From positions 1 to 34,744 of IMG/VR virus record IMGVR_UViG_3300036985_000091: a stretch of DNA of 34,744 bases; one strand, 5' to 3'. A program made the translations under genes and the position numbers. Positions 8,748 through 34,733 of this stretch are shown here, in pieces; positions within the stretch are counted from its first letter, which is position 1, and every line of letters starts with the position of its first letter. The notes below the pieces were generated by a model, which ran no database searches, was not told the origin of the DNA, and saw only the letters and a list, made by a program, of their open reading frames with translations. Source of the DNA: a virus.

Positions 8748-9534
8748 ATCCTTTCTAACCATTATTAATGCTAGAACAGTAAGATTATCTGGTGATATAC
8801 AACAATTCAAGCCAATCTATAATGAATCTTATGATATCATTAAACTAGAAGGTGTAGAGTTGGATTACCATGTCGGGCAGGTCATCAGACCTAAGTTAAA
8901 GACTCCTTACAAGATTAATATAATTCAAAAGCTAGCTGTAAATGGGAATCCAAATAACCCTGCACAAGCCTATGACTTATCTATTGCAATATTGAACTTA
9001 TCTTCAATATTTGCAGCCCCTTTGTTGGGAGGTAATAGAGATTTATTCTTGTGGGATAAGTATTTCGTTAATGCTTTTGTAGAAACTGTTGATGAGAAGA
9101 ACATCATTGCAATGCTGTACAGATTCTCAGGGGATGTCTTATTCTTAAAGTTCGAAGCTGCACTATGTGCATTCAGAACATTTAAACGTAAGATTGACAC
9201 TGACTCAAGTCATGTAATGTTTGTATTTGAAGTTCCAGAGACATCACAGAATGCCTATGATTGCTTGATGAATAGTGAGTATTCTAAAATTGATGACTTC
9301 CTGAAGTTAAAGATTCTAGATTATCATGGGTTTAACATGGATGGTCAAACAGCTAAAGTTCTATTCAAGTCTCAGATTCTAAGAGCTGAGCTTGAGGAGA
9401 AGCTAGACTGTAGTATCCCTGCAGAGAATGAGCTGCACTCAGCATTTGATATGTCCAAAGAAAGATTCAATCCAGAGTATTATTACACACCAAAATCAAT
9501 AATAGAAAGAAAATTTAATGTCAAAAGTACTTGA
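8698..9534 (+). CDS. Protein of unknown function between flap nuclease and UDG
   Basis: A 278-residue protein that I do not recognise. It has alternating beta-like and helical stretches, including SFLTIINARTVRLSG near the start, a hydrophobic AILNLSSIFAAPLLGG at about residues 96-111 and YRFSGDVLFLKFEAALCAF around 142-160. No catalytic motif stands out. The ATG at 8698 overlaps the flap-nuclease tail by 50 bases, and its 3' end overlaps the uracil-DNA glycosylase by 17 bases. The three are therefore probably translated together, which suggests a repair or replication accessory role. The exact start is uncertain, because the first 15 residues (NQQNLPLNLPPGKPGK) look poorly structured and lie within the overlap. 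Confidence 0.72.
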   Translation: MNQQNLPLNLPPGKPGKSFLTIINARTVRLSGDIQQFKPIYNESYDIIKLEGVELDYHVGQVIRPKLKTPYKINIIQKLAVNGNPNNPAQAYDLSIAILNLSSIFAAPLLGGNRDLFLWDKYFVNAFVETVDEKNIIAMLYRFSGDVLFLKFEAALCAFRTFKRKIDTDSSHVMFVFEVPETSQNAYDCLMNSEYSKIDDFLKLKILDYHGFNMDGQTAKVLFKSQILRAELEEKLDCSIPAENELHSAFDMSKERFNPEYYYTPKSIIERKFNVKST

Positions 9535-10222
9535 ACAATTAGGGGATTGGGCTCCAGTTTACACGAAAGTAACTGAAGAGCTCGGTCTTGAATACGAAAT
9601 GCTCAAGTCAACTTTAAAAGCAGAAAGAACCTCTAGGATTGTTTACCCAAGCAGTCCAGAGGTTCTTCGAGCTTTTGAGATGACTCAACTTAAAGATTTG
9701 AAAGCAGTGATCATTGGCCAAGATCCGTATCACAATGGAGCTGCTACTGGTCTAGCCTTCGGGGTTAGAGCAGGGTTTAAGATTAACCCAAGTCTTAGAG
9801 TTATTTATAAAGAGCTATGTTTGGAACACGGGGAAGAAGAACTACCTAATTTTGATTTCAGTCTAGAACACTGGGCAAAGCAAGGGGTACTCCTTCTCAA
9901 TACAACATTAACTGTGGTAAAGGGTCATCCGAATTCTCATGAAAGCTTATGGAAAGGCTTTGTAGATGGGATGGTTACTAAGATGATTAGAGAGAAAGAT
10001 AATGTTGTATTTCTACTATGGGGTAAGTATGCACAGAACAGATTCAAAACCTTAGTTGAGGGGACGAATATGTACGATGGCAAATCCCACGTTGTAATTA
10101 CTGCTGCACATCCAGCAGCTGAGGTATACGGAAGTATGAAAGCTGGGTTTGTTGGGAGTAATTGCTTTATGAAAGCTAATGATAATCTATCCAGTCCTAT
10201 TGATTGGGTAAATAATAATTAA
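9518..10222 (+). CDS. ung: Uracil-DNA glycosylase, family 1
   Basis: The 234-residue enzyme removes uracil from DNA. The water-activating motif GQDPYH (67-72, catalytic Asp69) is intact. It is followed by PSLRVIYKEL, by EHWAKQGVLLLNTTLTVVKG with the uracil-specificity Asn, and by the C-terminal histidine in AAHPAAEV (His198). In standard UNG the last motif reads HPSPL; here SPL is replaced by AAE, so the DNA-intercalating Leu loop is changed, although GFVGSNCFMKAN resembles the usual end of the family. It overlaps the preceding unknown gene. Some phages use UDG to keep uracil out of their DNA or in replication priming complexes; which applies here is not visible. Confidence 0.92.
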   Translation: MSKVLEQLGDWAPVYTKVTEELGLEYEMLKSTLKAERTSRIVYPSSPEVLRAFEMTQLKDLKAVIIGQDPYHNGAATGLAFGVRAGFKINPSLRVIYKELCLEHGEEELPNFDFSLEHWAKQGVLLLNTTLTVVKGHPNSHESLWKGFVDGMVTKMIREKDNVVFLLWGKYAQNRFKTLVEGTNMYDGKSHVVITAAHPAAEVYGSMKAGFVGSNCFMKANDNLSSPIDWVNNN

Positions 10223-11176: not shown

Positions 11177-14100
11177 TTATGATACTCCTGGAGGAGCAAT
11201 AAAGAATTTAAGAGATTCTTGAGGGTTAGAGGATTTATCTAGACCTCTAAAGATTGGTGCTAGATCTTCTAACATCTTAGTTAACTTAAGATCTCCTTTT
11301 TCATACTTACCAGATTTTCTTTCATAGTAGATACCATCTTCATCTCTTAATCCAGTTCTGTATGGAATCTCTTTGAATAACAGATGATCCACTAGTTTCA
11401 TGCTATTAATAAAAGGCTTAGACAAAGCTGTTGGAGATGAGGCAAACCTGTAGAATTCCATAGGGTTGTAGAACTGAGATAACTCTGATGATATTCTCAA
11501 AGCTTGATAAGCTACAAATGCTGCTGCATAATCATCATCGTCATCATCATCACTCATCATTCCTAAAGCTACGGCTGCTATTGCAGTTGCTGTTACTTTA
11601 AATCCAAGCTCCATACTAGTACGTTTAACATTCTGCTTTTCCATTGGACTTAAAATTTGATACACACTGCCAAACTTTAACCCTTTAGATACAGATTCTT
11701 TTACGTATCTACCAAAACTGATATACATACCTTCACTAATTCCATTTACTTCTGTATCTAGGTGTATCTGATCCCCAAATCCAAATCTCTTTCTTAAACC
11801 TGGTTGGAAATATCTACGATACATCAAAAGAGCTTTACCATACCATCGTCTGTTTAAGATAGGGTCATCAATAGCAGTCTTAATCTGGTTGGTTTTCTTG
11901 TATACCCCAGATACAAGATTTATCATTTGTATAGGCTTAAAGTTAGCCACTCTAGGATCTATCTTCCACTTACCACTAGCATCTTTGTCAAACACATCAT
12001 ATAGATTAGCCTCAGAACCATCAGCATTTTTAATTACTTCTCCGTTCTTATCTTTGAGTTTACCCTTATATGTATCAGCTAAAGCTAACCCCCTGGTTAC
12101 AGCTGTCTCGTGTTCAGCCATATGCTGCAGGATGAATAGGCTTTGAGTATCTACTGCTTTAAGAGCCCTGTTACCTGTACGTTTCTCTGTATAGTTTGAA
12201 AGTTCTACTCCTAATAAGTCAAACTCTTGAATAAATCTAGCAAGTTTTGTTTCTTTATTAAATTTACCTGCATCTGAGATAGTTTCCCCAGATAACATAG
12301 ATTTAGTATAAGTTACTTTAGCCCAAGTAAGATTTTTAGTGTCAAAGAATTGACCAGCTACTGCTTCTTCTGCTAGTTTTTCATTATCAATTAAGAACTG
12401 GTTAGTTGCCTGTAGAGCATTCAAAGCAAGAGTATTCAATGCTGAGAAAGTAGCAAGTTTATTTACCACTTTGTTTACATTTACTACTCTCCCCAAAATA
12501 TTAAATTCTTGTTTAATTTCTTTCTCCCCAAAGAATTCCTTATCTATAAACTCAGATACGTGTTGAAAGTTATTTGATACTCCTTTTTTTCTGGTAAATC
12601 TATTAACTCCAGCTGCTTTAGCAGCAGCAGACAATACAGGATTACCCTGTACATTCTGTTCAAGTATTTCTCTTCCTTCTACAAGGTCTCTCATCATAAT
12701 GACAGCTCCTGTAATTTGAGACTTCCTTCTAAACATATTAGCCATACCAGCATACAGTACAACTGTAGAACCTACGTCATGGCTTACGAACCTGGCTTCT
12801 GTTGGATTGATGTAGTGTACTGGGACAATCTTATTTCGTTGTTCTTTATTAGCATTGATAACTGCACCATATGAATCATCAGTTGAGAGGAATGCAAATT
12901 CTCTATTTGCAAAATCTTTAGTAGACTTAAATACATTGTAGTTGTCTCCTTGTAACTTTTCTAGACCCTGAGCCTCTACTGATGGGACTACATACGATAC
13001 TTTATCCCAATCATTCTTATGAGGTATCTGCTTACCAGACATCTTCTGGTGTTCATTATAAACTTTAAGAAGAGCTGTGTAATACTTAGCTGCTGGAGAA
13101 TTAGGATTAGACATTAGAGCCGTATACTTAGGGTTAGCATAGTTAGAGTTTGGTCTAACTGCTATTCCTTTATACTGATCGTTTTTGCTGTCAAACATTC
13201 TAGCTTTTTGTTGTAGAAGGTCTAGTTTATGAGCCTCATAAATAGCTGCTAAGTCTGGGTTGGACTGCACTCCAACCATTTTTTTATTCAAGTCTTTAAT
13301 CCTGGCATCGAGATCTGCTACAGCTTCAACCCCTTCTTGTGTTACAATTGTATTTTTCTTATACCAATTAGCTACCTCTGTAAAGAACCGAGCACCTGCA
13401 TCACTCTTAGCCCAGTCTCTATACTCTGTAGTACCGTACTCAGGTTGAGCATACTTTGTCTTTAAAGATTTTCTCATTTGGTACTCATCCTCGTGGAACT
13501 TAGTCACATTATAAGGCTGCACAAAGCTTAGCATTTGCATAGGCTTCATTTTTCCTGAAGTATCACGTATATAATAAGTCTGAGTCTCTAAGATATCAGA
13601 GTTGAAACTGGTAGGATCTAAGTCCGATCCTTTAAATTCTGCAAATTCTTTATAAGCAGGGGCAAGCTCATCTATTACATCTCTGGTATCAGCCGATGCT
13701 TGGTAAAGTTTATTCTTTACCATTGATGTAAACAACTGTATAGATACTTGAGACGAGTAGATCAGCGGGTCCATGTACAGAGAGTAGGCAGACTTATCAA
13801 GTTGTGCCTCTCTAAGTTCATTTATTAGAGTCTCTCGTGAAATCTTTTTATTTTTAAGCTGCTGTATGTTAAGGTCTATCATTGCCGTCTCGTAATCCTC
13901 TTGAGAAATCTTTTTTTCTTTAAGATCATCTTTCAGTTTGTAGTATTCTTCATCTCCCTTAATAGCAATAAGACGTTTGTTAGTCTTAATATTGTTTATA
14001 AGAACTTCAATGTCACTATTTATCTCTGGAGTACTATATTCTAATATGAGATCTGCTGTAAGCACTGTTCCAATATTTTTATATTGCATCTGTTGACTTC

Positions 14101-15658
14101 TTAGTTTCTTAACCAGATTGTCTACCTTTTCCTCCATAGAGGATAGGACTATCTGTTGTTTACTATTAATTCTAGATGTTTTTCTATCTTCAATAGAGCC
14201 TTGAAGTTTGCTTGCAATACTGTTATCACCACCTCCAAAGAAGTCTTGAATATTGTTACCTAAGTGGTACATAGTATTCAGAAGACCACATCTCTCTTCT
14301 TCAGACATATTTATAAGACTTTCATCAGAGAAGCTCATCATGTAGTTTATGCTTTCTTCATTAGTCTTTACTATTCTTGACATATAGTCTACAAATCCTA
14401 TGAAGTCTTCCACCTGTTCTGCTTTGGCTACTGCCCCCTTTATTTTCTTTTTTGCATCATCGTTAGTTTCTTGAATATTTTTAAATGTACTAAGCTGGGA
14501 CTTTATCTGTACTATGACATCATCATTCTTTATTGGAAGAGCCTCAAGTCTCATGAGCTGGGACTGAAGTGTTTCAGTCGTAAGCTTCATCAAGTCTTTG
14601 ATATCCGAAATCTTTTTATTAAGAACTTTACTATTCTGCTCTTCTTCAGTTAAGGTGCCTGTAAATTCATTAGCATTTAATCTTTTGCTAAATAGCTTAT
14701 CCAAAAGAGTCTCTACAGCATTGTCATCTATTCCAAAGAAACTTTTTATAGCTCGAATAAATTTATTAATTGCAGTTTCAAATACAGATTTTCCTTTTTG
14801 TCTTCTAGCACCTAGTATACCCATAGATGTTACAAGTGTTTCCTTGGCTAGAGCCTGTTCAGATAATTCTGGATAAGCTTCTGCTACTTGGGTGTAGAGG
14901 TCTGTGCCTTTTACAAGATTCAATGCTTGTTTAACTAAAGCATTATCCTCCCCAAGCAAATCAATTAAGATATGACTGAACTCATGTATATGAGTATCCT
15001 CAGTCATAAGATCAGGGTTAAGAGTAATGTTTACAGTGCCATCACTATTAGCTTTAGCCTTTCCCTTAGTGTCTATTGTATCATCAAAGTTTACCTTAAT
15101 TACAATACCTGCTGCTGAGAAAGTGTTTATAAGATGTCTTACCTGGTCAGCTAATTTTGGAATGTCTTTGAATGCTTCTTGTTTACGTGAAAGAGGTTGA
15201 GTCTCTACAAACTCTTCTTCCATCTCAGCAACTTTAGGGGCTATTAATTGCTTAAATGCTTCTTCTAGTTGCTCGTTGGTGACTTCAGGAATGTATGCTT
15301 GTTTGGCAAGAGTCTCAATAGGTTGAAAGAAACTATCGTTAATGCTGACTTGATATCTATTTATACCTATTTTTTTGGCAGTTAAGAACTTCTCCACACT
15401 ACCATTGGGCTTGAAGTATCTAGCAATTGTAGTATTCATTGAATTTACAATGTGCTTAGGATCTTTTATATCACCTTTAGTTATTAGATCCCCGTTGCTG
15501 TTTACAGTGAAATACTCGGTAAACCCGTCGAGTAAGCTATATTTAATAGCTTTTTCTTTGTTAGAGGCATTACCTTCTATAGTATCAAATAAACTTTGAT
15601 ATCTTATTGATGGTTGTGGCTCTCCTTCAGTGCTAATTTCAAATACTTTACAGGCCAT
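11177..15658 (-). CDS. Giant virion-type protein with N-terminal HEXXH metallopeptidase domain
   Basis: A 1493-residue protein, last gene of the late operon. A zincin motif HEFSH lies at residues 225-229 (EDTHIHEFSHILIDLLGE). A Glu further on (about residues 265-275, ALAKETLVTSMG) could be the third zinc ligand, and an amphipathic helix FIRAIKSFFG follows. This order is shared with the next gene upstream. Residues about 330-700 are charged and helical, probably coiled coil. Near the C-terminus a hydrophobic stretch TATAIAAVALGMM is followed by seven Asp (1370-1376). This could touch the membrane. I infer a capsid-packaged, ejected protein that cleaves a virion or host target, because it sits next to the polymerase; no substrate is visible. 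There is no Shine-Dalgarno sequence, and TAA is followed by TAG. Confidence 0.8.
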   Translation of the reverse strand: MACKVFEISTEGEPQPSIRYQSLFDTIEGNASNKEKAIKYSLLDGFTEYFTVNSNGDLITKGDIKDPKHIVNSMNTTIARYFKPNGSVEKFLTAKKIGINRYQVSINDSFFQPIETLAKQAYIPEVTNEQLEEAFKQLIAPKVAEMEEEFVETQPLSRKQEAFKDIPKLADQVRHLINTFSAAGIVIKVNFDDTIDTKGKAKANSDGTVNITLNPDLMTEDTHIHEFSHILIDLLGEDNALVKQALNLVKGTDLYTQVAEAYPELSEQALAKETLVTSMGILGARRQKGKSVFETAINKFIRAIKSFFGIDDNAVETLLDKLFSKRLNANEFTGTLTEEEQNSKVLNKKISDIKDLMKLTTETLQSQLMRLEALPIKNDDVIVQIKSQLSTFKNIQETNDDAKKKIKGAVAKAEQVEDFIGFVDYMSRIVKTNEESINYMMSFSDESLINMSEEERCGLLNTMYHLGNNIQDFFGGGDNSIASKLQGSIEDRKTSRINSKQQIVLSSMEEKVDNLVKKLRSQQMQYKNIGTVLTADLILEYSTPEINSDIEVLINNIKTNKRLIAIKGDEEYYKLKDDLKEKKISQEDYETAMIDLNIQQLKNKKISRETLINELREAQLDKSAYSLYMDPLIYSSQVSIQLFTSMVKNKLYQASADTRDVIDELAPAYKEFAEFKGSDLDPTSFNSDILETQTYYIRDTSGKMKPMQMLSFVQPYNVTKFHEDEYQMRKSLKTKYAQPEYGTTEYRDWAKSDAGARFFTEVANWYKKNTIVTQEGVEAVADLDARIKDLNKKMVGVQSNPDLAAIYEAHKLDLLQQKARMFDSKNDQYKGIAVRPNSNYANPKYTALMSNPNSPAAKYYTALLKVYNEHQKMSGKQIPHKNDWDKVSYVVPSVEAQGLEKLQGDNYNVFKSTKDFANREFAFLSTDDSYGAVINANKEQRNKIVPVHYINPTEARFVSHDVGSTVVLYAGMANMFRRKSQITGAVIMMRDLVEGREILEQNVQGNPVLSAAAKAAGVNRFTRKKGVSNNFQHVSEFIDKEFFGEKEIKQEFNILGRVVNVNKVVNKLATFSALNTLALNALQATNQFLIDNEKLAEEAVAGQFFDTKNLTWAKVTYTKSMLSGETISDAGKFNKETKLARFIQEFDLLGVELSNYTEKRTGNRALKAVDTQSLFILQHMAEHETAVTRGLALADTYKGKLKDKNGEVIKNADGSEANLYDVFDKDASGKWKIDPRVANFKPIQMINLVSGVYKKTNQIKTAIDDPILNRRWYGKALLMYRRYFQPGLRKRFGFGDQIHLDTEVNGISEGMYISFGRYVKESVSKGLKFGSVYQILSPMEKQNVKRTSMELGFKVTATAIAAVALGMMSDDDDDDDYAAAFVAYQALRISSELSQFYNPMEFYRFASSPTALSKPFINSMKLVDHLLFKEIPYRTGLRDEDGIYYERKSGKYEKGDLKLTKMLEDLAPIFRGLDKSSNPQESLKFFIAPPGVS

Positions 15659-15669
15659 TTATTTTTATT

Positions 15670-18600
15670 TTATAACATACAAATTTGAGTAACATCTGAA
15701 GGAGCTACTTTTTTAGCTCCAGCTATATACAATCCTTGGAAGAATGGCAATACACTATCTATACTAGTTTCTTTACCTACAACTTTTATATTAAGATATT
15801 CTCCCCCCACAATATGCTTTTTGGTATTAGCTGTTTTGTTAAGAGACAAATATAAAGCTTTATCTGAGCCCTGCTTATAGTTTGGGCTTAGGACGTACAC
15901 ACCTGACTCTCCTTTTTTAGTTCTAAATACCATAACTGCTGGAGGGTAACCACCATACTTTTCAACATTGGTGTAATGTTCTTTAGCAAGCTTGGTTACT
16001 GTTATCCCTAGACTCTGTCTATCTGTGAGGTTAGACCCACCAGGACGTATCTCCCCAAATATTCTAAAGAACTTGACTAAGTCCTCAGCTGTAAAGTAGT
16101 TGCCTGTTTGCATGTTCATAGATTGCTTATGTAAGTAATCCGCTACACTTATATCAGGTAATCCAGCCATTTCTCTTTTAAGAGGTTGCAGCCAAAACTG
16201 TGGTGGGATCATAGTAGCATAGTTAAATGCCGACTTCCTAAACCCGTTAGAGATTAAGGTGTGCATAGATAAATCAAACCCTATCTTCTTAATTTCTTCT
16301 ATAGATCCTTTATACTTTTGTATTGTTTGCTCTGTAGCATCTTTACCAGGCTTTGTTAAATAAGCTTCTGGTCTGTACATTAGGTTGTACAAGTCTTCTT
16401 GAATCCTTGACTTTTCCTCTGGTGCATACTGTTGTGTGGCATCAAAGTTAAAAGTTACAAATCCTTTTACAGATTTGTTATTGTCATCTTCGCTAAGTTT
16501 AGATAAGAATTCATTCCCAGAAAGGTTTCCGTATTTCTGTAAAGCATTTTGAACTCTTGCCCACAAGGTAAACTTTCCTTTACCTGGTTTGTATAAGTCT
16601 TCACTGTATGGTACATTAAAATATACACTAAGTGGGGAATCTTTTTTTGTCAAAATTGTAAACATCATAGCAGCATTAATATCTCTGTGCTGCTCTACAC
16701 TTAGTGTCTCTCTTCCTGTAGCTGCTTTGATACCCTCTTTAAATTTAATAGCTGACTCTGATGTAGTCATTGGGAATACAGTACCAGCAACTCCAAGCAT
16801 TTCTACTAGCAGATTATAGTACCCTCTCTCAAATCCGTAGATGGAATTCTCATCATAAAATTGTGTAAGAATGTTTTCATCTTTAGATCTACCATAGAAT
16901 GCTATAGGTGCATTATCCATTAGCCCACCTTTTGGATTGTTAAACTTTTGCCGTCTCTCTACAAATGCTTGAACTGCCTCTATCCTGTTAATGCCTGTCA
17001 TGGTATCTGGAGTAAGCAGTTTAAATGCCTCCTTAAGCTGTTTACCTGCTGTATACATTTTCATAAAGTTTTGCAGAGCTCTAGCAGGCTTAACAGATAA
17101 AGTCATGATTTGATCTCTAGACATTGTATATGTACTAGGTATTTTTTTATAATTCTGAGGAAGACCATCACTGCCTAGTGCTATATCATATTTCTCAGCA
17201 ATTTTTTTATAAGCTCTATTCATAGCAGACAAATCATCATTGTGTTCATTTGCCATGACGTCTACAAAATCTCTGATAATTGGCTGGTTTAAAAAGTGAT
17301 GTAGTAATTCTGTATCCCCATGATAATGTATCCACAGCAACTCTACTGGAAAAGTTATTGGGCTGTCATTCACTATATAGTGGTATGGAGCTTTGGTACC
17401 ATCCACAGCTGCAGTTACATATCGGCTACTAATTCTATCTGTAGTAAGACCAGAGTCATACTTATATCCTGCATTTTTTGGGATGGCTTTAAGAAAGCTA
17501 GTATTTACCAATTCTCCTTGAATTTTAATTGCAAACTCTGACACCAAATTAAAGTCATCTGATGCAGCTGCTACGTTTCTACCAGCCATTGCATTAGCCC
17601 AAAGTCCTCTTAATTTGGTTCCTAGCAAGTTTCTTACAGCACTTTGAGTTTCATACATACCTCCTGTAAATACTTTATTAGGTTTTAAAGACTCGTTTAG
17701 ACTCACAATACTAGTTCTAATATTTTTTAAAACGTCATCATCAAGTGGTCTTAGTGTCTCAAGGTAGTGTTCTGGGGAAGAGAATACAGCTTCGATTGTA
17801 TCCAAGATAATATTCATTAGTTCCTTATCATTAACTTTAGATACGTCCTTAGTTCTAGAAAGCTCAAAGTAATTAGGCTTTACTTTTACACCATTCTCAA
17901 TTTCTGGAAACATCAAGAACATTTTATCTACGTCAAAGTCAGATCCCATTAGCTTTACAAGCTGTGGGGGAACTACAATTGCTTTTTCATATCCAGCAGG
18001 AAGTACAGCTTTAATCTTGAAGATAATGGTGGATGCCTTATCCTGGTTAGGGATACGATAACCAATGATTCTTCTAAGCTCTTCTGGAATGTTGGCAAGA
18101 TCTAAGTCTGCACCTGGCTCTATGCCAAATCTTCTAAGCACATCCTCTCTAACCATTATCTCAGCGTGGGCTAACCTAGTGCCCCTACCTTCATTAGAAG
18201 GGTGATCCACAATCTCTAAGAAATTAAGAGTGTTGTCTACTCCGAATCCACCTAAAGCTGCAGTTTGTACAGCCTCGTATCCTGATACATATTGCTTAAA
18301 TACATTGTTGTTATAGATGCTAAGTAATGCTGTTTGGAATGCTGTACCGTATACAGGGAAGTCAAGTGGTATAGAGAATCTTGTAATACCAGTAACAGGG
18401 TCTATAGTTATATCAAGAGCTTTAATGAAGTTATCACTTAATTCTCTTTCTATAGCTTGACTCTCAATTAAGGATCTAATATTTTTAATCAGTTTCTTTT
18501 TAGCTTCTTTAAACTCTTCAGCATTTTGAATAGCATCTATGTTTACTTTACTATTAGTAGATGTCTCAAGCTTAAGTTTTTCAACAATCTTTCTAAATTG

Positions 18601-21600
18601 ACCTAAACCTATTTGATTGTTTACAGACTCAAGGTCTCTTTTAATTCTTTCCTCAATAGCTGCATGATAAAGTGCTGTCATGTCTTCACCAAATACAGGC
18701 ACCTCTTCTTTTAATCCTGCATTGTAAAAATAAGTTGCAGATGATACTACGTTAGCAATAGCATTCTTTTTCACTTGTCTACCGAAAATTGTCTCGGATT
18801 TTTCTTTTGCAGGTGGAATGGTTTGAGGAAAACGTAAAGCAGATGTGCTGTTTCTATTAGATTTTACATTAGCAAAAAATCCACCTTGCATAGGTGACCA
18901 GTTCTTAATATCAAGTACATTCAACTTAACCCCCTTCTTGGCAGATATAGCACTAGCTGTATGTATTTTTTTCATCCCTGCATAAGGATTGTTTGCTTCA
19001 AGTGGGTTGGCCTCCATTCTCATCCTCATGTCATCCATGACTGGGAATGCTTTACTGTACGATTTAAGTATTGGGAAATAAGCTGTCTTAGTAATGTCCG
19101 AAACTACAGTATTTCCTACACGTTTAATCTCATTGCCAAATGGCTTATAGGGCCTGAATGGGATTTCTTGCCCAGCCTTTGCTCCTTTAGGTAACTTAAC
19201 TCCTAGTGGATATAAAAATCTTCCCTCAGGATCTTGTTTATAATTTTTGTAAGCTAATTCATGATAATCATCCCACTCTCCTTGCCCGTCCATTATTTCT
19301 CTCAACCAATCTATTGAGATAAGAGTTAAACCATCGTGCTCTTCAAATTCACCTGCCATGTACTGTGAAGTAAACGCAGCTTCCTCTGGGCTATATCCAG
19401 ATCGTATAAGTTGCTCAGTAGTTCTAGTTGCCCAATCATTCATTTTCTGTGCAATGGCAGAAGTAATCTGTCCTTTTGGATCATCAAATACTAACTCTTC
19501 GTATTCAGAGATGGCTCCATACCCCATAGGATCGTCAAGCCATGTTACTTTTTGTGATTCTTTTTTACCAAGTGTTCCTTTCTCTGCAAGCTTAGTCCCA
19601 GGGGTTCCAAGAGTTCTTTGACGTTTAGTAAAATCCTCTACACTCTTGAACATAGCTCTATTACCTCTCGTTATTTTAATAACCTCATTTCTACCTACAT
19701 CTTCATGAATAAGAAAGTCTAAAAAAAGTGGGGTTGCCATTTGAACAAACTTAGAGTTATCAGAAGATTCTACAATCTTAGTTCCCTCTGCCCATTTTGA
19801 TAACTGTTTACTACTTAAGTCTTTTTTCCTATTAGACGTTTCAATAAGTTTTGCAATTTGAATTGCAGCATCTTCGTAGAACAAAGTGAGATCTGCTGTC
19901 ATCCTGCTTAGCTCATTTGCAAATTCCTTTAGTTGTGGATTTAAAGGAATGCCGTTGTTACGTGCTTTTATATAATCCTCAGCAAGATCCGACATATACA
20001 TTCCACCACCTTTTTCACTGATAAACACATCAGTTACAATTCTTTCCCCGTCTTTATTTATACCATCAAACTGCATAAACTCACTGCTTATACCAGTAGT
20101 GTCTCCAGTATGATAGTCTGATATCTTAGTGGCATTAGGATCTGCAATTGTCTTTTTAGCTTCTTTTATTCTAAGAAGATCTTGAAGTATTCCTTTTATG
20201 AATGCCTGTTGGTAGTTCATATTAAGACTATCCTTTGTGTGACCAGATAGTCTAGGCATGTTCATGTACATCATAATTGCCCTGTCCCCCATAGAAGGAA
20301 CGGTTACCCCATAGGTGGTAGCATCATCGTTATTTATAAAGGCTTGTAGTCTTGAAAGAATAGAATCAACACTATTAAAGTCTTCGTATTCTAATCCATC
20401 TTCTGCATAATCTCTAATAGCTGATAACGGATTCACACTAAATCCCTCTGAAAACTTTTCATTATTCAGAAGATGGTTAAATAAGTGGCTAGGTTCCATG
20501 CCAGGTGGAAATATGAATGGATCCTTTTTATACAACTCAAAGGCCTTATCTTTATTCTTAGCTAGGTCTGCTTTAACTATTGCAGGTAATTCAGCAATAG
20601 GGGTAGACATATTTAATGGGAATGTAGCCGTGTTAACAGCAGTCACAAAACTCTCAGCAGATCTACTTGTGAAGTACGGAGCTAGGCTAGCCAGGAACTT
20701 CATACCCTTTTTAGCAAAATCTGCATCGTAATAAGGTATAGGTTTTTCATTTACCGTACCTATGCTTAACCCAGTACGAGGGAAGGTTGTAGTCGGAGAT
20801 AGAGATTTAAATATCTCTATAAGTCTAGCTCTATCAAAGATTACCTTAAATGCAGCTTTTCCTTTAACTTCTATTTTCTTTCTTTTATCTGTTTCAGATT
20901 TAAGTACTGTGAATCCTTTGTCTATTAAGTTTTGTAGGTTTTGTATAGTATCAAACTCTTGGATATTACTTCCTAAGCTCATACCTAAATGCCATATTAG
21001 AGAACCTAGTGCATTTACAGGAGTACTTATCTGACCGTCAGTGCCACTCATAAATGCAATATCAGCAGCAGCATCATCTTTGTATTCCTTAATAGAAGCC
21101 TCGTAGCTTTTCTGAAAGTACTTTGATATAAGCTTAAACTTCTCTGATTTTATTTTATACTTAGCAGTAGTCTCATCATCACCTATTGTTTTTATATAAA
21201 CTGCACGTTTAGTTATATCTGTATCTTCTTCTTGTCCATCCATTTCTACTATCTGGACTCTCCATTGTTTTCCTACTCTGCTCTCAGTGCTAGAACTATT
21301 AGCATTTATTATTTTACTATCCTCCCCAAAAAGAATTAACTTAAATTCAGAGTTAGTATTAGCAAGTGCATTATACAAAGTAGCTCTGTCTTGATGAGAC
21401 AGCGTACGAATACGTTCATTTATACTTTTAAGATCTGTTCTAAGCTTAGATTTCTCTATAAGATTAGCCTCCATCTCTTCAAAAGTTAAAGTGTCGGCAC
21501 ATATCTCTGATAACTGTTTGTATATAAAAGGTAAACTGTAGTATTCATTTTCACTAGTAAACACTTCATTCTTTTTGGTTTTATATATTATCTTGTCTCC

Positions 21601-23091
21601 TTCTTTTACTCCAGTTATAATAGGTATACGTCTAAGAATATTCTTTGCTCTCTGTGATAGTTTAGTCATTGGAGAGTCGGCAAAGTGGCTTCTTCCTCTA
21701 ATGTCTTTATCATCTACACCTGCATCCTGTGCTTCAACTTTTTCAGTCTCAGCATCTCCTTCTTCGTTGCTAGCTACAAGAACATCTTTTGTAACAGAGT
21801 ATTGGGCGGCAGCCAATCCATTAAGTACCATTTTTCTCCATGATGGGATCAAAGTGTTACCAGTTTGAAGATCATTTTTACCGTACCAGTTTGTAATTAC
21901 ATTTATAACTTGCTTACGTCTAGCTATCTGTCTTTGAGCTATTGATTTATCTCTGTCAGAAGAATCAGGATTAATTACCTTTTTCTTTATTACGATTCCA
22001 TTCTTCTTTGCATATTCAACTAAGTCTGAAAGATACCCATCTACCTCAGGTTTAAATGCCTCGGCTGCTTTAGCATCTTGTTTTTTAAGAGCATTGTACT
22101 TTATCTTGGCATTAGTATGTCTTGTCTCTAATGACAACATTTTATACATCTTAGGTATATCTGTTTTATCTATAGTTGTTTTTTCCTTTATACTGTAGAT
22201 CTGATACAAGAGTCCATTCACAATTGACCCATTAGTTCTTTCCTTCTTACTTCCTAAGATCTTATTTACATCAGGTGTCTCCCAACTTTCAATTTCATCG
22301 ATAGCCATATTGGTAAGCCCTTGTACCATCTTCTCTACAGTGGCTGATGGTATACCCTCTACAAGCATGCTCGGATTATAAGAACTCTGCATAGCTTGTG
22401 GGTTCCTGAATACTCCTCTACCGAGGAAAGTATCATTGGCTTTGGTAGTCTCCATAAGAGAATACACATCTCTAAGACTCAGCTTATTGGATATTATTCC
22501 TTTTATCCAGCTGAACAAGTCTCTGAACCATTTAGCTAGTCTATCCAGTATACCCTTGCTACTTTCTTCCTCAGTCTGCATGTGCTCCATGAATCCATCA
22601 GACATCTTCTCTTCGAGTACTAGATTACTAGCCTCTTCATCCCCGATTAAAGTATCGTATAACTCTTGTACTTCTTTCTGAATTTTTTGAATCTCAGCAG
22701 TAGTAGGTGCTCCAAATTGTTTAGATGCATCTTTATACAAAGCATTTCTCTGTTCTTCAGATAACATTGTTCTAAACAGCAAATGGTAAGCTTCATGGTA
22801 TGCAGTTCCAGCTTTAGCAGATGTCCATAAATTAATTGCCCCGTTCTCAACATATCCATGCTGAGTCTTATTACCTATCTCTTTGGCAAAGTCATAGAAG
22901 ATAGTCTCCTTTCCAGGAAACATTTTGGATAAATAAGCAATAGCTCTATCTTTTTTATCAGACTCTTTTGGGAAGTAGTACTTAGAAGGCACCTCCCCAT
23001 TATACTTATTCCATAATTTATAAGCTCTGTCAGGTTGAGCTTCTTCTAGTGACTTCCATTCAGGAAGAGATTTATTTGGGCAAAATGTCAT
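15670..23091 (-). CDS. Giant crAss-like virion RNA polymerase with N-terminal HEXXH domain
   Basis: A 2473-residue protein. The polymerase core is marked by GSDFDVDKMF, with Asp1718, Asp1720 and Asp1722 forming the Mg-binding loop of the double-psi beta-barrel. Upstream, RIPNQDKASTIIFKIKAVLP and AIVVPPQLVKLM line up with the beta-prime pattern 'RxPxLHRxSI...' through 'NADFDGD'. This is the single-chain polymerase family of crAss-like phages (phi14:2 gp66 type), related to YonO and to eukaryotic RNA-dependent RNA polymerases. A candidate first barrel lies around residues 1290-1420 (VVSDITKTAYFPIL). The N-terminus has HEAYH at 99-103 with EEKMSDGF as a possible third ligand, then an amphipathic helix LAKWFRDLFSWIKGI (about 181-195). 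It is probably carried in the capsid and transcribes early genes after ejection; the protease domain may be active or structural. It has an AT-rich leader and no Shine-Dalgarno sequence. Confidence 0.9.
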   Translation of the reverse strand: MTFCPNKSLPEWKSLEEAQPDRAYKLWNKYNGEVPSKYYFPKESDKKDRAIAYLSKMFPGKETIFYDFAKEIGNKTQHGYVENGAINLWTSAKAGTAYHEAYHLLFRTMLSEEQRNALYKDASKQFGAPTTAEIQKIQKEVQELYDTLIGDEEASNLVLEEKMSDGFMEHMQTEEESSKGILDRLAKWFRDLFSWIKGIISNKLSLRDVYSLMETTKANDTFLGRGVFRNPQAMQSSYNPSMLVEGIPSATVEKMVQGLTNMAIDEIESWETPDVNKILGSKKERTNGSIVNGLLYQIYSIKEKTTIDKTDIPKMYKMLSLETRHTNAKIKYNALKKQDAKAAEAFKPEVDGYLSDLVEYAKKNGIVIKKKVINPDSSDRDKSIAQRQIARRKQVINVITNWYGKNDLQTGNTLIPSWRKMVLNGLAAAQYSVTKDVLVASNEEGDAETEKVEAQDAGVDDKDIRGRSHFADSPMTKLSQRAKNILRRIPIITGVKEGDKIIYKTKKNEVFTSENEYYSLPFIYKQLSEICADTLTFEEMEANLIEKSKLRTDLKSINERIRTLSHQDRATLYNALANTNSEFKLILFGEDSKIINANSSSTESRVGKQWRVQIVEMDGQEEDTDITKRAVYIKTIGDDETTAKYKIKSEKFKLISKYFQKSYEASIKEYKDDAAADIAFMSGTDGQISTPVNALGSLIWHLGMSLGSNIQEFDTIQNLQNLIDKGFTVLKSETDKRKKIEVKGKAAFKVIFDRARLIEIFKSLSPTTTFPRTGLSIGTVNEKPIPYYDADFAKKGMKFLASLAPYFTSRSAESFVTAVNTATFPLNMSTPIAELPAIVKADLAKNKDKAFELYKKDPFIFPPGMEPSHLFNHLLNNEKFSEGFSVNPLSAIRDYAEDGLEYEDFNSVDSILSRLQAFINNDDATTYGVTVPSMGDRAIMMYMNMPRLSGHTKDSLNMNYQQAFIKGILQDLLRIKEAKKTIADPNATKISDYHTGDTTGISSEFMQFDGINKDGERIVTDVFISEKGGGMYMSDLAEDYIKARNNGIPLNPQLKEFANELSRMTADLTLFYEDAAIQIAKLIETSNRKKDLSSKQLSKWAEGTKIVESSDNSKFVQMATPLFLDFLIHEDVGRNEVIKITRGNRAMFKSVEDFTKRQRTLGTPGTKLAEKGTLGKKESQKVTWLDDPMGYGAISEYEELVFDDPKGQITSAIAQKMNDWATRTTEQLIRSGYSPEEAAFTSQYMAGEFEEHDGLTLISIDWLREIMDGQGEWDDYHELAYKNYKQDPEGRFLYPLGVKLPKGAKAGQEIPFRPYKPFGNEIKRVGNTVVSDITKTAYFPILKSYSKAFPVMDDMRMRMEANPLEANNPYAGMKKIHTASAISAKKGVKLNVLDIKNWSPMQGGFFANVKSNRNSTSALRFPQTIPPAKEKSETIFGRQVKKNAIANVVSSATYFYNAGLKEEVPVFGEDMTALYHAAIEERIKRDLESVNNQIGLGQFRKIVEKLKLETSTNSKVNIDAIQNAEEFKEAKKKLIKNIRSLIESQAIERELSDNFIKALDITIDPVTGITRFSIPLDFPVYGTAFQTALLSIYNNNVFKQYVSGYEAVQTAALGGFGVDNTLNFLEIVDHPSNEGRGTRLAHAEIMVREDVLRRFGIEPGADLDLANIPEELRRIIGYRIPNQDKASTIIFKIKAVLPAGYEKAIVVPPQLVKLMGSDFDVDKMFLMFPEIENGVKVKPNYFELSRTKDVSKVNDKELMNIILDTIEAVFSSPEHYLETLRPLDDDVLKNIRTSIVSLNESLKPNKVFTGGMYETQSAVRNLLGTKLRGLWANAMAGRNVAAASDDFNLVSEFAIKIQGELVNTSFLKAIPKNAGYKYDSGLTTDRISSRYVTAAVDGTKAPYHYIVNDSPITFPVELLWIHYHGDTELLHHFLNQPIIRDFVDVMANEHNDDLSAMNRAYKKIAEKYDIALGSDGLPQNYKKIPSTYTMSRDQIMTLSVKPARALQNFMKMYTAGKQLKEAFKLLTPDTMTGINRIEAVQAFVERRQKFNNPKGGLMDNAPIAFYGRSKDENILTQFYDENSIYGFERGYYNLLVEMLGVAGTVFPMTTSESAIKFKEGIKAATGRETLSVEQHRDINAAMMFTILTKKDSPLSVYFNVPYSEDLYKPGKGKFTLWARVQNALQKYGNLSGNEFLSKLSEDDNNKSVKGFVTFNFDATQQYAPEEKSRIQEDLYNLMYRPEAYLTKPGKDATEQTIQKYKGSIEEIKKIGFDLSMHTLISNGFRKSAFNYATMIPPQFWLQPLKREMAGLPDISVADYLHKQSMNMQTGNYFTAEDLVKFFRIFGEIRPGGSNLTDRQSLGITVTKLAKEHYTNVEKYGGYPPAVMVFRTKKGESGVYVLSPNYKQGSDKALYLSLNKTANTKKHIVGGEYLNIKVVGKETSIDSVLPFFQGLYIAGAKKVAPSDVTQICML

Positions 23092-23104: not shown

Positions 23105-26100
23105 TTAACAAATTCCTTCTAGCACATCGTTCTGCAGCTTGTCAGATTCTTCTTCTGTAAGGGTGATGCCAAATGTGTCTTTTACTATTTGTATAAACAT
23201 TGCATCATCCATTCCCCCAGATTTAGTAATAGACTTTTTAAGGTCTGCTAATTGTTTGTCTACTCCTGCTGATGGACCACTTTTGGATTCTCCAGCATTT
23301 AATAAGTCAGATGTTAAAGATACTTTAGTCACCTTACCTTGCTTTTTAACTTCTTTATTTTCCTTATCAACTTCTTTACCTTTAGCAGTTTTACTTTTAG
23401 TAGTAGCCTTAGTGCTTGCTTTCTTACTGCCTGCATTATTGATACTTGGGTCCGAGCTAGTCGTTGCTCTTTTCTGCTCGAAAGATACTTCACCCTTTAC
23501 CAACTTTTTAATGTCGTAGTTTAATGTAAACTTTTTCTCAGCCATACTAGATACTCTATCTATGTATCCAGCCTTGTCATATCTAACTGGTATAAACAAT
23601 ACACTAGCTCCTGTTATCTCAACCTTTACTTTTTTATCTAGTCCTATACCTCTTAGTGCATAAGCATACATGCTTAGCTGAGTTCCGTGTTGATCTCTTT
23701 TGCTTTTAGAAACTTTTTTAGTTTGTGGGTCAGTGTACCCTTTTTCATAATTTGCAAGCCCAGACTCTGAGCCAGTCTTTATGTCGTAAAGATAATACTT
23801 TCCAGTCTTCTTATCTCTAGCTAAAACGTCAAACTTACCAGCAAAATCTCCGTAGCTTTCACTGTAGACAATCATCTCAGTAGAAATTACTTTTTGTTTT
23901 CTAGAGTCTATCAGTCGTTTTATGTTTGATATCTGGCTTTTAAGATCCAAGAATGCTACACGAGACATTTTATCTCCACGGCTATAAGTGTCATCCCCCA
24001 TAAGGACTTTCTCTACAATATCGTGTACGGTATTACCAGCTCTGCTAGAAGATACTTTCTGTTCTTCTGTACCATTAAATGGCTCAGAAGAGAAACTAGT
24101 AATACGTTTAAATTTCTTAGTAGTGGATGTTCCCTCAGGCTGTATTTTATAGTGAGTTTCTTCTTTAGTGGTAGGGTCTTCAAACATCCCCTTATACTCT
24201 TTTTCTTTAATATCCAAAAGTTTACCGACTAATGGGTCTAACAGATCTCTGTCTTCTTCTGGGATATCATCTTCTTCTATATCCTCTTCTATCTCATCCT
24301 CATTTTTTAGTTTACCTTTAGAATTAAGAAGATCCTCCATAGTTGTAGTAGATCCTGCAGCTTCATCTTGCTCCTCCTCTATCTCACCAATAGCTTCTGC
24401 TATTTCATTGTTATCTTCTAATTCTTGTTCGGAATCACTGATCTCATTGTAGTCATCATCCTCATCTGAGTACTCATCATTTTCTTCTTTTTCTTTAGAC
24501 TCAGTATTGGCCTTGGCAGATTTATTTGAAATGTCTTCTTCGGCAGAATTAACAGGTTTTCCATTTACAAGCATAGGCCCATAGGTAAGACCAATGTCAA
24601 AGTACGGACTACGATCTGTATTGAGGTACATGTCTGAGCCTATGATTCCAGTCCAAGAGTTACCTTCAGAGTCAATATCAGGGATAGCCTCAGGGTCACT
24701 CAAGTATTCTACATAGCTAGTATATTTCTTTCTTTCCCCATTCTCCTCATTCATAAATGGGGAATCAAATGGCTCATTAGCTATAAGTCTTTCTATACTT
24801 ACTTGATACTTTTTATCCATTAAAGCACCTTCAAATGCTTTGATTACTTTATTTGAATACTGATTCCATTTACCTTCCTTACTTTCATTTTTGATAAAGT
24901 TTATTCCACCCTTCTCTCCTTTTTCAGCTTTTACAAAGCCGTATTCAAACTTCTTACCTGCTAATGCAAGAGAAAGATTTTGTGCAGATATACGAATATA
25001 GCTTTCAGCCTCAGGTAAATAGAAGGCATACGTATTCTCTCTATTCTCTGAGTTCTCTTGTCCTACTGGTAAAGAGAACATCAAGTCAGTTCTCTCCAGG
25101 CCTATTGCTAACTCTGCAATTAAATTAAAACCTACAAGATCTTCCAAAATATCTGACTGGCCATTCATAAGAGCCAGCTTTGCAGCATTAACTCCAGCCT
25201 TAGTCATGTTCTTAGTAGTAAGTCTAAGATGTCGGAATCCTCCTAGAGGACTTTTAACAATCATTGCAACTCTACCTAAATCTTCAGGGTATGCTTTTAT
25301 GTCTGGGAAGGTGTCTCCTGGTTCAATGTTGCCCCCTTTTAATGCCACTTCGTACTTACCTGCACCACTATCTCTTTCTATACGAGCTATGGCTATAGTA
25401 GGAACCCCTTCTGCAAATGGATTATAAAAGAATCTATTCCCATCTTCATCTACTGCATTTGCAATATTCTGAGAGTTAAATCTTTTACCAGCGATAGTAC
25501 TAGTCGTCTTTTTACCTTGTAGGTAATTATTGTAGATATCCTCACGGCTTACGTTAGACTCTGGTTTACCTGGAGCATAGCCTTCAAGCATACCAACTCT
25601 TCTCACCTTGCCATTAGGCATTCTTATTCCTACGAATATTGGGACCTTTTCCCAATGCTTATTAGCAGGGATGCTATCTTTTATACCTTCCCAATAGACA
25701 GTATCAGTACGTACTTCAAATATTACCTCTGTGCTTACACTAGAATCAACACTAGATGTTAGAAGCTCGGGAGTCATTTCAATAGTCTTACCTGTATCGA
25801 CATTTACTTGCTGCTTATACTTAGGATTAGCTAATGGTGCTCCATCAGTATCTACTATTACATTATTGTAGTCGTCAGTAGTTTTGTACTCATTCTTTAC
25901 AAGACGAGCATCTATCTCCCCAGCATGTTCACTTCCTACTTCTTCTTCCTCATCTACAGATTCTTTTGCAGGCTCACGAGTAATATTGTCTTCATCGATG
26001 ATATCTTCAGTAGGTTCTTCTTCCTCAGTTTTAAAATCTACTTGAATTGTTACATCATCTTCTTCATCAATATCATCTACCTCATTAGAGTAAAGGCCTT

Positions 26101-32471: not shown

Positions 32472-34733
32472 CTAGATATTAAATGTTTTTTTACCCTTTG
32501 ACAATTCACCTAAACGAGAAGTGTATTTTCTAGTTTTTCTAATTCCTCCAGTTTTAGCTGTACCTATGTAGTCATTATACTGCTTAGCTGAATAATCTCT
32601 AAGCTCTTTATCTGTTTTACCATAAAACTCAGAGTCTTTATCTTTAGCTTGTTTTTTCAAGTCTTCATAATATTCAAATCGTTTATAAGAACCAGCATCA
32701 TCCATAGCATTAGCTAGTCTTTCTTGAGCTTCATAGCTTTTGTAATCTTTGTAGATATTAGCAATACGTCCTGATGCAGTATCCAAAACTCCTAAAGTTC
32801 TTTCATCTTTATATCTTTTCTCATCAATCTTTAGTCTAGCTTCTTGGTTGCCAGCTTCAAGATTACTTTGGTTAACTGCAAGTTGATTTTGAACATTAGC
32901 CATGTTAGCTCTTTGAGCCATCTCTGCATTAGCCATAGATGCTTGCATTCCAAGTCTAGCTTCTTCTCCAGCTAATTCTCTATTAGCTCTTTGCTCTTGG
33001 TTAGCTATTTCAAGACCTTGTTGATTTTGCTTGCTGTTAGCTGCCATCATAGCAGCTATGCCTCCAGGACCAGCATTTTGATTTTGAATAGCATTCTTAA
33101 TAGCAACAGTGTTTCTTTCAACAGCTGACCTTTCAGCATTCATATTTACTCTAGGTAAAATAGCTCCTTTAACACTAGTAGATCCAACATTACCTGCACC
33201 CTTCATTCTCTCAAGTTTGCCATCAGTCTTGTATCCCTTAAACAATGCATACCCTACAGGAAGAAGTTGACCTAACCCTGCAAGTAGGGCCCCGTTAATT
33301 CTTCTGTTTCTTGGAGGAATAGTTTTATCTCCTTCTTTTTTATCATCTTTTTTTACAAGGTCTTCCTCTTTAGGAATTACATCTTCTTTTTTATCAACGA
33401 CTACTTCAGGAGGAAAATACCCATCCCCAGGAAATGGCCCTTCTGTTCCTGGATCTACTACTACAGGAGTTGGGTTAACAGTTGCGGCAGGAGTTACACC
33501 GAATGGAGTTGGAATAAACTCAGCAGCTCTTTGACCAGTATTGTCTGGCATCTCTGGTCTTAGCAATGATGCAGGTGGAAACCCAACTTTAGGTGCCCCA
33601 AGTGCAGGAACATCTATTGTAATAGGTGGTCTAGTTTTACCTAGATATGGGCCCACCCCACTTACTGGAACAGCATCATAAGCTTGTCCAGGTCTACCCA
33701 TGTTACCAGTGAATGATCCTACTCCAGTCCCAGGTCCTGTATACGGTGCAACCCCAGTTCCTGGTTTAGCAAATGGCTGACCACCTAAACCTGGCAATGG
33801 TCCAGGCTTTGATACCCCAGTGTTTGGGTTAGGCAACAATTGCTGAGCACCTCTTCCTAATATATTCATACCTATAGCTCTAAGTCCAGCTGGTACTGCC
33901 ATACCTACACCTAATCCAATGTTTCTAACATTAGCATCTTGATTTTGTTTAGCCTCAAAAGCAGCTTGTTGCTCAGCATCACTTAATGGGTTATTTCTCC
34001 TTTCTCCAGTTTTTTCATTATAATAAAAAGTTCTAATAGATCCCATGTATCCAGGCTCACTTACCAATTTAAATCCAGCGTTAGGATCTTTTACAGGGGC
34101 TGGTGTATTAGCAGCACCTAATTTAAGTTTAGGTTTTTGCTGTTCTATTATCTTATTTGTATTTGTTACATAGGATTTCCAATCTCCTTCTGGGAATTCT
34201 TTTGTTGGGTATCCTTCTGCATATCTTCCTTTGCCCCCATAATTTTGAATCATCATTAAGGCTTCCTCAGGAGTCTTTGCATCTTTGTATTTTGGAGACC
34301 ATTTTTTAACGTGAGCTGTAATAGAGTCTTGGAGGTTATCATAGTTAGCAAAAGTTTTAGAGCCTCCACTAGGATCTCTTGGAGTTGCAATTCGGGCACC
34401 ATCTTTACTCTTAGTAGTCTGCCCAAACATATTCCAAGAGCCTGTCATTTGTTTACCAAATCCACTCTCAATAGCCCATTGAGCAGCTGTCACCTCTGGC
34501 ATAGGGTCTCCTGCATTTTGAGCTAATTTATAGATTAGACTGTACTTATCATCTTTGCTCATTTTGTTCCACTCTTCGATAGACACGTTACCATCTTTAG
34601 GACCACCATTAACATACTCCTTAACCATACCACTATTAGTAGTACGTTTACCAGGAGCTGCAGACTGTTGGTCGGATGGAGCTTCAGCATTAGCTTTATT
34701 GGTATCTCTAAGAGTTACATTAGCTGCATCCAT
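32472..34733 (-). CDS. GH73-like peptidoglycan hydrolase joined to a structural region (start may lie beyond window)
   Basis: At least 753 residues. The N-terminus has an FlgJ/GH73-type glucosaminidase signature: AAQWAIESGFGKQ with catalytic Glu89, then GSWNMFGQ, a FANYDNLQDSITAHV segment and GRYAEGYPTKEF. Such domains cut the glycan strands of peptidoglycan and would let the phage cross the host wall at entry. A Gly/Pro-rich low-complexity region follows (about 300-430), then a hydrophobic segment INGALLAGLGQLLPVGYALF (about 478-497). Next comes an Asn/Gln/Ala-rich coiled coil (about 540-640) and a basic C-terminus, KYTSRLGELSKGKKTFNI. This is a plausible virion protein of the ejection set. 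The frame stays open to the window edge without a stop, so the true start may be upstream of 34733. It ends in TAG TAA. Confidence 0.78.
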   Translation of the reverse strand: MDAANVTLRDTNKANAEAPSDQQSAAPGKRTTNSGMVKEYVNGGPKDGNVSIEEWNKMSKDDKYSLIYKLAQNAGDPMPEVTAAQWAIESGFGKQMTGSWNMFGQTTKSKDGARIATPRDPSGGSKTFANYDNLQDSITAHVKKWSPKYKDAKTPEEALMMIQNYGGKGRYAEGYPTKEFPEGDWKSYVTNTNKIIEQQKPKLKLGAANTPAPVKDPNAGFKLVSEPGYMGSIRTFYYNEKTGERRNNPLSDAEQQAAFEAKQNQDANVRNIGLGVGMAVPAGLRAIGMNILGRGAQQLLPNPNTGVSKPGPLPGLGGQPFAKPGTGVAPYTGPGTGVGSFTGNMGRPGQAYDAVPVSGVGPYLGKTRPPITIDVPALGAPKVGFPPASLLRPEMPDNTGQRAAEFIPTPFGVTPAATVNPTPVVVDPGTEGPFPGDGYFPPEVVVDKKEDVIPKEEDLVKKDDKKEGDKTIPPRNRRINGALLAGLGQLLPVGYALFKGYKTDGKLERMKGAGNVGSTSVKGAILPRVNMNAERSAVERNTVAIKNAIQNQNAGPGGIAAMMAANSKQNQQGLEIANQEQRANRELAGEEARLGMQASMANAEMAQRANMANVQNQLAVNQSNLEAGNQEARLKIDEKRYKDERTLGVLDTASGRIANIYKDYKSYEAQERLANAMDDAGSYKRFEYYEDLKKQAKDKDSEFYGKTDKELRDYSAKQYNDYIGTAKTGGIRKTRKYTSRLGELSKGKKTFNI

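Follow-up and report, generated by a model that had tools for sequence, protein, structure and literature searches.

Zincin-like domains at module seams and terminal cysteines at gene breaks in the virion cargo proteins of crAss-like phages

Virion polymerases and the cargo genes of the window

Zincins in phage virion polymerases are already known from N4, whose vRNAP carries one of the zincin-like metallopeptidase (MPTase) domains of polyvalent proteins; the core of these domains consists of an N-terminal helix, three strands, a HEXXH helix and a second helix with a glutamate (PMC5512222). The locus described here shares with these MPTases the presence of a zincin core in giant virion-delivered, polymerase-fused proteins and a basic aromatic helix following the core. 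It differs from N4 vRNAP in the position of the domain, which in N4 lies C-terminal to the polymerase, whereas here two homologous copies occupy two module seams, and in the polymerase itself, which is of the two-barrel type here and T7-like in N4. A further difference from N4-type MPTases is the EEXXH variant of the second domain, zincin B, in crAss-like phages. Thermus phage P23-45 encodes gp96, in which a virion RNAP is joined to a tape measure protein that bears a metallopeptidase domain (PMC10770324); compared by its description, it is likewise a giant protein with a two-barrel virion RNAP and a metallopeptidase on the same chain, and it differs in being one polypeptide in the tail tape measure.

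Within the crAss-like gene block a zincin is also already on record, p-crAssphage gp45 having been deposited as a ‘putative RNAP associated protein fused to zincin protease’ (BK010471). Its HESLH domain lies at the seam of zincin A, near the C-terminus of a gp47-type cargo protein adjoining the RNAP gene, and escapes detection by our zincin A profile. In connection with gp45 we found no mention of zincin B, of both seams or of terminal cysteines, and a two-seam zincin rule was not found in the open literature searched. Closest to the window are phi14:2 and crAss001, with the same three cargo proteins: the vRNAP (phi14:2 gp66, crAss001 gp50), the gp65/gp49 protein and the g067/gp47 protein. In crAss001, gp47, gp49 and gp50 are virion proteins by mass spectrometry (PMC10172136). 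Both phages obey the terminal-cysteine rule described below exactly, as the window does; their polymerases, unlike that of the window, carry no zincin. Zincin A is absent in phi14:2 and located on gp47 in crAss001, whose zincin B is of the EEXXH type.

The window, by which we mean the whole 34.7 kb virus record analysed, comes from a relative of the crAss-like gut phages. Its minus-strand half encodes five cargo or structural proteins, among them three giants, P0003, P0002 and P0001, separated by gaps of 13 and 11 bases and homologous by tblastn and profiles to proteins of crAss001, phi14:2 and other Crassvirales. The arrangement by which we recognise a Crassvirales cargo block, a DxDxD-motif RNAP adjoining gp47- and gp49-type giants, is present, and by homology to crAss001 the cargo proteins of the window phage are predicted to be in the virion.

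All cargo features located below are on the minus strand. First in the chain is P0003 (23105–30118, 2337 aa), a crAss001-gp47-type cargo protein that matches the gp47N profile over residues 82–585 and has crAss001 gp47 and phi14:2 g067 as homologues. Near its C-terminus is a PD-(D/E)XK nuclease-like domain (23549–24190), detected by phrog_466 (exonuclease, E = 7.5e-6) and by our own profile, with a PF12705 match (E = 5.1e-5) slightly above the cut-off; since the same domain is located on separate downstream cargo ORFs in other contigs (L071, L080, L089 and L103), it moves within the chain. P0002 (15670–23091, 2473 aa) is a virion RNA polymerase homologue by tblastn to crAss-like ‘putative RNA polymerase’, with the double-psi beta-barrel (DPBB) core and its DFDVD motif at residues 1428–1945 (17257–18810; tblastn, and a core profile that matches residues 1430–1944). 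Last is P0001 (11177–15658, 1493 aa), of crAss001-gp49/phi14:2-gp65 type by tblastn and profile, in which the conserved C-terminal region of gp49-type proteins spans residues 881–1493 (11180–13018; own profile). Upstream of the cargo block, a cysteine-free protein of 753 aa (32472–34733, minus strand) has an N-terminal glucosaminidase-type lysin domain (PF01832); facing the block is a uracil-DNA glycosylase gene (9518–10222, plus strand; PF03167, E = 3e-13), followed by two small uncharacterised ORFs.

Two homologous zincin-like domains at the seams

The sequence-only reading had drawn attention to HEXXH motifs in P0002 and P0001, each followed by an acidic helix and then by a basic aromatic amphipathic helix, and these features proved real in both giants. 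HEAYH of P0002 (residues 99–103, 22783–22797) is invariant in 63 sequences and HEFSH of P0001 (residues 225–229, 14972–14986) in 34; both helices follow, and the third ligands, Glu161 (22609–22611) and Glu273 (14840–14842), are equally invariant. The invariant columns are G79, H99, E100, H103 and E161 in zincin A (mean identity of 24% in the 63-sequence alignment) and H225, E226, H229, Y262 and E273 in zincin B (34-sequence alignment). By chance, 0.027 HEXXH motifs would be expected in P0002 and 0.014 in P0001, and a six-frame scan of the window contains only three in total.

As delimited by alignment, zincin A comprises residues 41–215 of P0002 (22447–22971; AlphaFold2 pLDDT of 80) and zincin B residues 161–340 of P0001 (14639–15178; pLDDT of 78, with the core above 90), confidence in both models being medium beyond the core. 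The order of elements is the same in both, helix, three strands, HEXXH helix, Glu helix and basic aromatic helix, with HEXXH on the first C-terminal helix and the glutamate on the second; the topology is zincin-like in each, and neither unrelated folds nor unconserved motif residues were found. That the two domains have a zincin fold and a metal site is very likely. Strictly taken, neither giant begins with its domain: 40–45 residues precede zincin A in P0002, and about 160 variable residues come first in P0001.

Neither zincin rose above the cut-off in Pfam and PHROGs searches with the whole proteins and both domain alignments, and phmmer and profile searches of PDB sequences gave nothing significant. 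A Foldseek comparison of the models with the PDB was likewise without significant matches, the weak top ones, none at E < 0.1, including the zincins anthrax lethal factor, MATCAP, abylysin and BlaR1. This lack of a fold match at E < 0.001, even with zincins among the top weak ones, would suit two HEXXH motifs that arose by chance or convergence in helical proteins, an explanation made hardly credible by their invariance in deep alignments, by the zincin topology, by homology that persists with the motif masked and by the resemblance of zincin A to the N4 vRNAP peptidase domain.

On profile comparison, zincin A and zincin B are homologous beyond the motif. Aligned with hhalign they reach a probability of 96.7% (E = 3.1e-10, 164 collinear columns), and 93.4% with HEXXH masked, while reversed and shuffled controls stay at or below about 5%; direct BLAST of the P0002 and P0001 N-termini paired non-corresponding regions and is no evidence of homology. 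In the tree, zincin A and the EEXXH zincin B each form one clade (SH-aLRT of 100), and A and B are cleanly apart. The pair may have arisen by duplication inside the lineage or by two captures, and the profiles and tree do not prove the duplication proposed earlier. Against the N4-family vRNAP peptidase profile, zincin A reaches 94% (E = 1.4e-7), and 43% once HEXXH is masked; zincin B compared directly with that profile is not significant and is linked to N4 through zincin A. Zincin A-like domains are found in cellular genome contigs (L160, L164, L165 and L166), for example in a Marinobacter protein with LPD1, and the family therefore reaches beyond virion polymerases.

Between the window and its relative L004, zincin A is 80% identical and under purifying selection (dN of 0.12, dS of 1.94); identity is 51% in the 785 residues that follow and 78% in the RNAP core. 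Zincin A is thus as strongly conserved as the polymerase core. Of the 56 non-redundant zincin B domains, 21, with crAss001 gp49 (L011:9434-13483) among them, have glutamate in place of the first zinc-binding histidine, giving EEXXH. The second glutamate, the histidine, the third-ligand glutamate and one glycine are conserved in all 21, which form one clade, and an early idea that zincin B had been lost in gut phages was rejected because these are a variant with all other site residues invariant. In ZIP transporters EEXXH accompanies manganese transport (PMC10457451), and by that analogy a metal switch is possible in EEXXH zincin B.

Across crAss-like phages, own profiles give the module order gp47N–zincin A–RNAP–zincin B–gp49C in nearly all loci, with gene breaks on either side of the zincins or all modules in one ORF. 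In the window the breaks lie directly upstream of each zincin. In crAss001 and its kin the break is downstream of zincin A, which ends gp47, often encoded on the opposite strand; in L087, L089 and L099 it is downstream of zincin B. Complete fusions occur in L108 (4726 aa) and L006 (4652 aa); no zincin A was detected in L006. The place of zincin A therefore ranges from the gp47 C-terminus through mid-ORF in fusions to the position before RNAP seen in the window. One locus departs from the order (L061, with an extra B-like match before zincin A), and zincins are missing at some seams: both in cr111, and zincin A in DAC15 and phi14:2. In p-crAssphage, gp44 is an RNAP+gp49 fusion in which zincin B is not detectable. 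Scans with gp49 profiles from wide alignments, which lack conserved stretches, gave no result. With zincins at both joints, a conserved seam architecture is close to certain.

This variation bears on what had been made of the two domains. Of a shared module placed in front of different cargoes, the homology stands and the front position does not, and self-cleavage in cis to release the polymerase cannot be a general job of zincin A, which in crAss001 and kin sits on the gp47 C-terminus. Two other ideas were also rejected: zincins are not needed because modules are fused, being found at split seams and absent at some fused ones, and the zincin is not a delivery tag, its position varying while only the cysteine-containing N-terminus is always at residue 1. 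Overall, the sequence-only interpretation is partly supported.

Cysteines at the gene breaks

Ahead of zincin A, P0002 opens with a separate element of 40–45 residues (FCPN...EWK.L....A..LW...G.VP; 22957–23091), located by profile matches to ‘FCPN...W..L......LW...G.VP’. All 36 ORFs matching the profile of this CPN element carry it at residues 1–8, and nearly all of them are polymerase, gp49 or nuclease-bearing cargo ORFs; by tblastn it matches annotated cargo-gene starts in cr113 and cr114 and, weakly, in cr272. It is the closest match to the module before different cargoes proposed earlier: different cargoes begin, at residue 1, with a cysteine-containing N-terminal peptide and not with a zincin. 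Inside the element lies the putative coupler cysteine, Cys4 of P0002 (23080–23082), forming the downstream half of seam 1.

The other half of seam 1 is the sole cysteine of P0003, its last residue, Cys2337 (23108–23110). At seam 2, Cys2471 of P0002, third residue from the C-terminus (15679–15681), faces Cys3 of P0001 (15650–15652). Apart from these, the giants contain only Cys531 of P0002 and Cys457 of P0001, and the remaining two cargo-like proteins of the window have none.

In related phages too, most cargo N-termini begin M-x(1-5)-Cys in proteins otherwise almost free of cysteine. Among distinct complete ORFs (contigs retrieved more than once were collapsed by N-terminal identity), counts that rest on metagenomic ORF starts, with which the deposited start codons of cultured phages agree, give a terminal cysteine in 0/25 gp47 ORFs at the N-terminus and 25/25 at the C-terminus, and in 0/24 and 23/24 gp47+RNAP fusions, respectively. 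For gp49 ORFs the corresponding figures are 39/40 (the remaining one has a misplaced start) and 0/40, and for RNAP+gp49 fusions 2/2 and 0/2. RNAP-containing ORFs in which neither a gp47 nor a gp49 part was detected have the cysteine at the N-terminus in 28 and at the C-terminus in 35 of 40; the N-terminal exceptions are probably for the most part ORFs of 3,500–5,400 aa with an undetected gp47 part, or fragments. The two complete fusions contain no cysteine in 4,726 and 4,652 aa.

A gene break is accordingly marked by a cysteine among the final residues of the upstream protein and by a second one at residues 3–7 of the downstream protein. Both facing ends carry it at 14 of 14 split seams 1 and 58 of 60 split seams 2 (the exceptions being L095, a fragment, and L086), and where the seams are fused, the stretch across is free of cysteine in 33/40 and 6/7. 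The cultured phages crAss001 and phi14:2 and p-crAssphage follow the rule. Deposited crAss001 coding sequences have one cysteine in gp47, Cys2339, third from the end, Cys5 and Cys2404/2412 in gp50 and only Cys5 in gp49; in phi14:2, g067 has cysteine only as its last residue, Cys1797, g066 has Cys3 and Cys2179/2180, and g065 only Cys3. In p-crAssphage gp47 (L013:32141-34714, 857 aa) a single cysteine lies one residue from the C-terminus and gp46 after it has none, possibly an exception to the rule or another coupling.

Out of sample, in contigs found through gp49 rather than zincins and with those already used removed, the N-terminal cysteine was present in 27/27, the C-terminal one in 0/27 and that of the upstream partner in 25/26; the control ORFs gave 7/121 and 24/121 (Fisher p = 2e-23 and 1e-13). 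Such counts include related and hence non-independent sequences, yet flanking residues vary widely while the cysteine stays. Breaks that fall within the DFDVD codons, in L018 and L112, served as a negative control and have no cysteine on either side; they look like intron insertions, and an annotated endonuclease ORF lies in the L018 gap. In L070 the RNAP region is broken at the protein level in a new position, with cysteine on both sides. The N4 vRNAP (L148:14524-25026), like fully fused crAss-like chains, contains no cysteine in 3,500 residues. A cysteine switch latching the zincin was considered and dropped, because RNAPs and other ORFs that lack a zincin carry the cysteines just as often. 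As a pattern the terminal-cysteine rule is virtually beyond doubt, and it appears to be new.

Proposed coupling and uncoupling of the cargo chain

On balance, we regard one end-to-end cargo chain, with zincins at its joints and pieces coupled by cysteines, as the best overall explanation. crAss-like virions would carry a single long chain, gp47–RNAP–gp49, its joints marked by zincin-like metallopeptidase domains, A before RNAP and B before gp49. In phages that encode the chain as several proteins, the upstream C-terminal and downstream N-terminal cysteines would form a head-to-tail disulfide, and the partly unfolded cargo would be ejected as one train; in fused phages a peptide bond would replace the disulfide. 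Less surely, the zincins may cleave the chain at its joints or close to them, during maturation or following entry, freeing the polymerase, and reduction in the host cytoplasm may likewise open the disulfides. Covalent coupling of the pieces by cysteine is the probable part of this scheme, judging from the ORF termini; uncoupling by zincins is a tentative one. The full version, in which head-to-tail disulfides rebuild a giant injected polyprotein that travels as one covalent train and is dismantled by reduction and the seam zincins, may equally well prove right or wrong.

End-to-end coupling is favoured because cysteines stand on both sides of breaks and at neither free ends nor within fusions, a pairwise rule to be expected neither of a general tag nor of a lipid anchor or metal site. 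A disulfide would be the simplest chemistry for it. Because the Bacteroides cytoplasm should be reducing, such bonds might form only late. Disulfides do occur in the crAss001 virion tail, through which cargo must partly unfold to pass (PMC10172136). We consider it rather unlikely that the terminal cysteines instead bind metal, are lipidated or belong to a packaging signal, with cysteine loss elsewhere avoiding misfolding in the oxidising periplasm. The single-chain N4 vRNAP, with no cysteine in 3,500 aa, does make depletion alone a general feature, and the N-terminal cysteine often lies within the conserved CPN element; a tag or lipid anchor, however, would neither vanish exactly at free ends and fusions nor pair with a cysteine on the facing end of the partner.

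Zincins are not needed for coupling, being absent from some phages that obey the rule (cr111, DAC15 and phi14:2), and zincin A is not merely a splitter of the gp47/RNAP junction, as it is kept where the genes are already split and missing in some phages. Release of the polymerase by a cut close to a joint would be their most economical job; against it stands N4, whose vRNAP has a similar domain and is packaged without being cut (PMC5512222). Ordinary polyvalent-protein metallopeptidases acting on host proteins after injection, a role proposed for that class (PMC5512222), would explain why active sites are conserved although the genes are already split and why zincin A-like domains occur outside the polymerase context, as in the Marinobacter protein with LPD1; seam placement would then reflect modular shuffling. 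A free effector need not keep to fixed seams, though, and nearly every architecture found places A after gp47N and ahead of RNAP, and B after RNAP and ahead of gp49, making this explanation improbable. Less probable still is a structural role in cargo packaging or threading, the metal site serving folding rather than catalysis. It would agree with N4, whose vRNAP enters the virion uncut and requires the region bearing the MPTase domain for encapsidation (PMC5512222), and with the change of the first histidine to glutamate in 21/56 zincin B domains whose site is otherwise strictly conserved, but pure metal binding would not require the general-base glutamate of HEXXH, which is invariant in 63 zincin A and 34 zincin B sequences.

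crAss-like phages are among the most abundant human gut viruses, and about 700 kDa of polymerase cargo has to leave them through a tail whose constrictions are less than 50 Å wide. The cysteine rule makes it testable whether gp47, the polymerase and gp49 leave covalently as one chain, with the seam zincins as the matching candidate for its disassembly. If this is true, gene fission and fusion would be interchangeable in the evolution of these phages, a pair of cysteines standing for a peptide bond.
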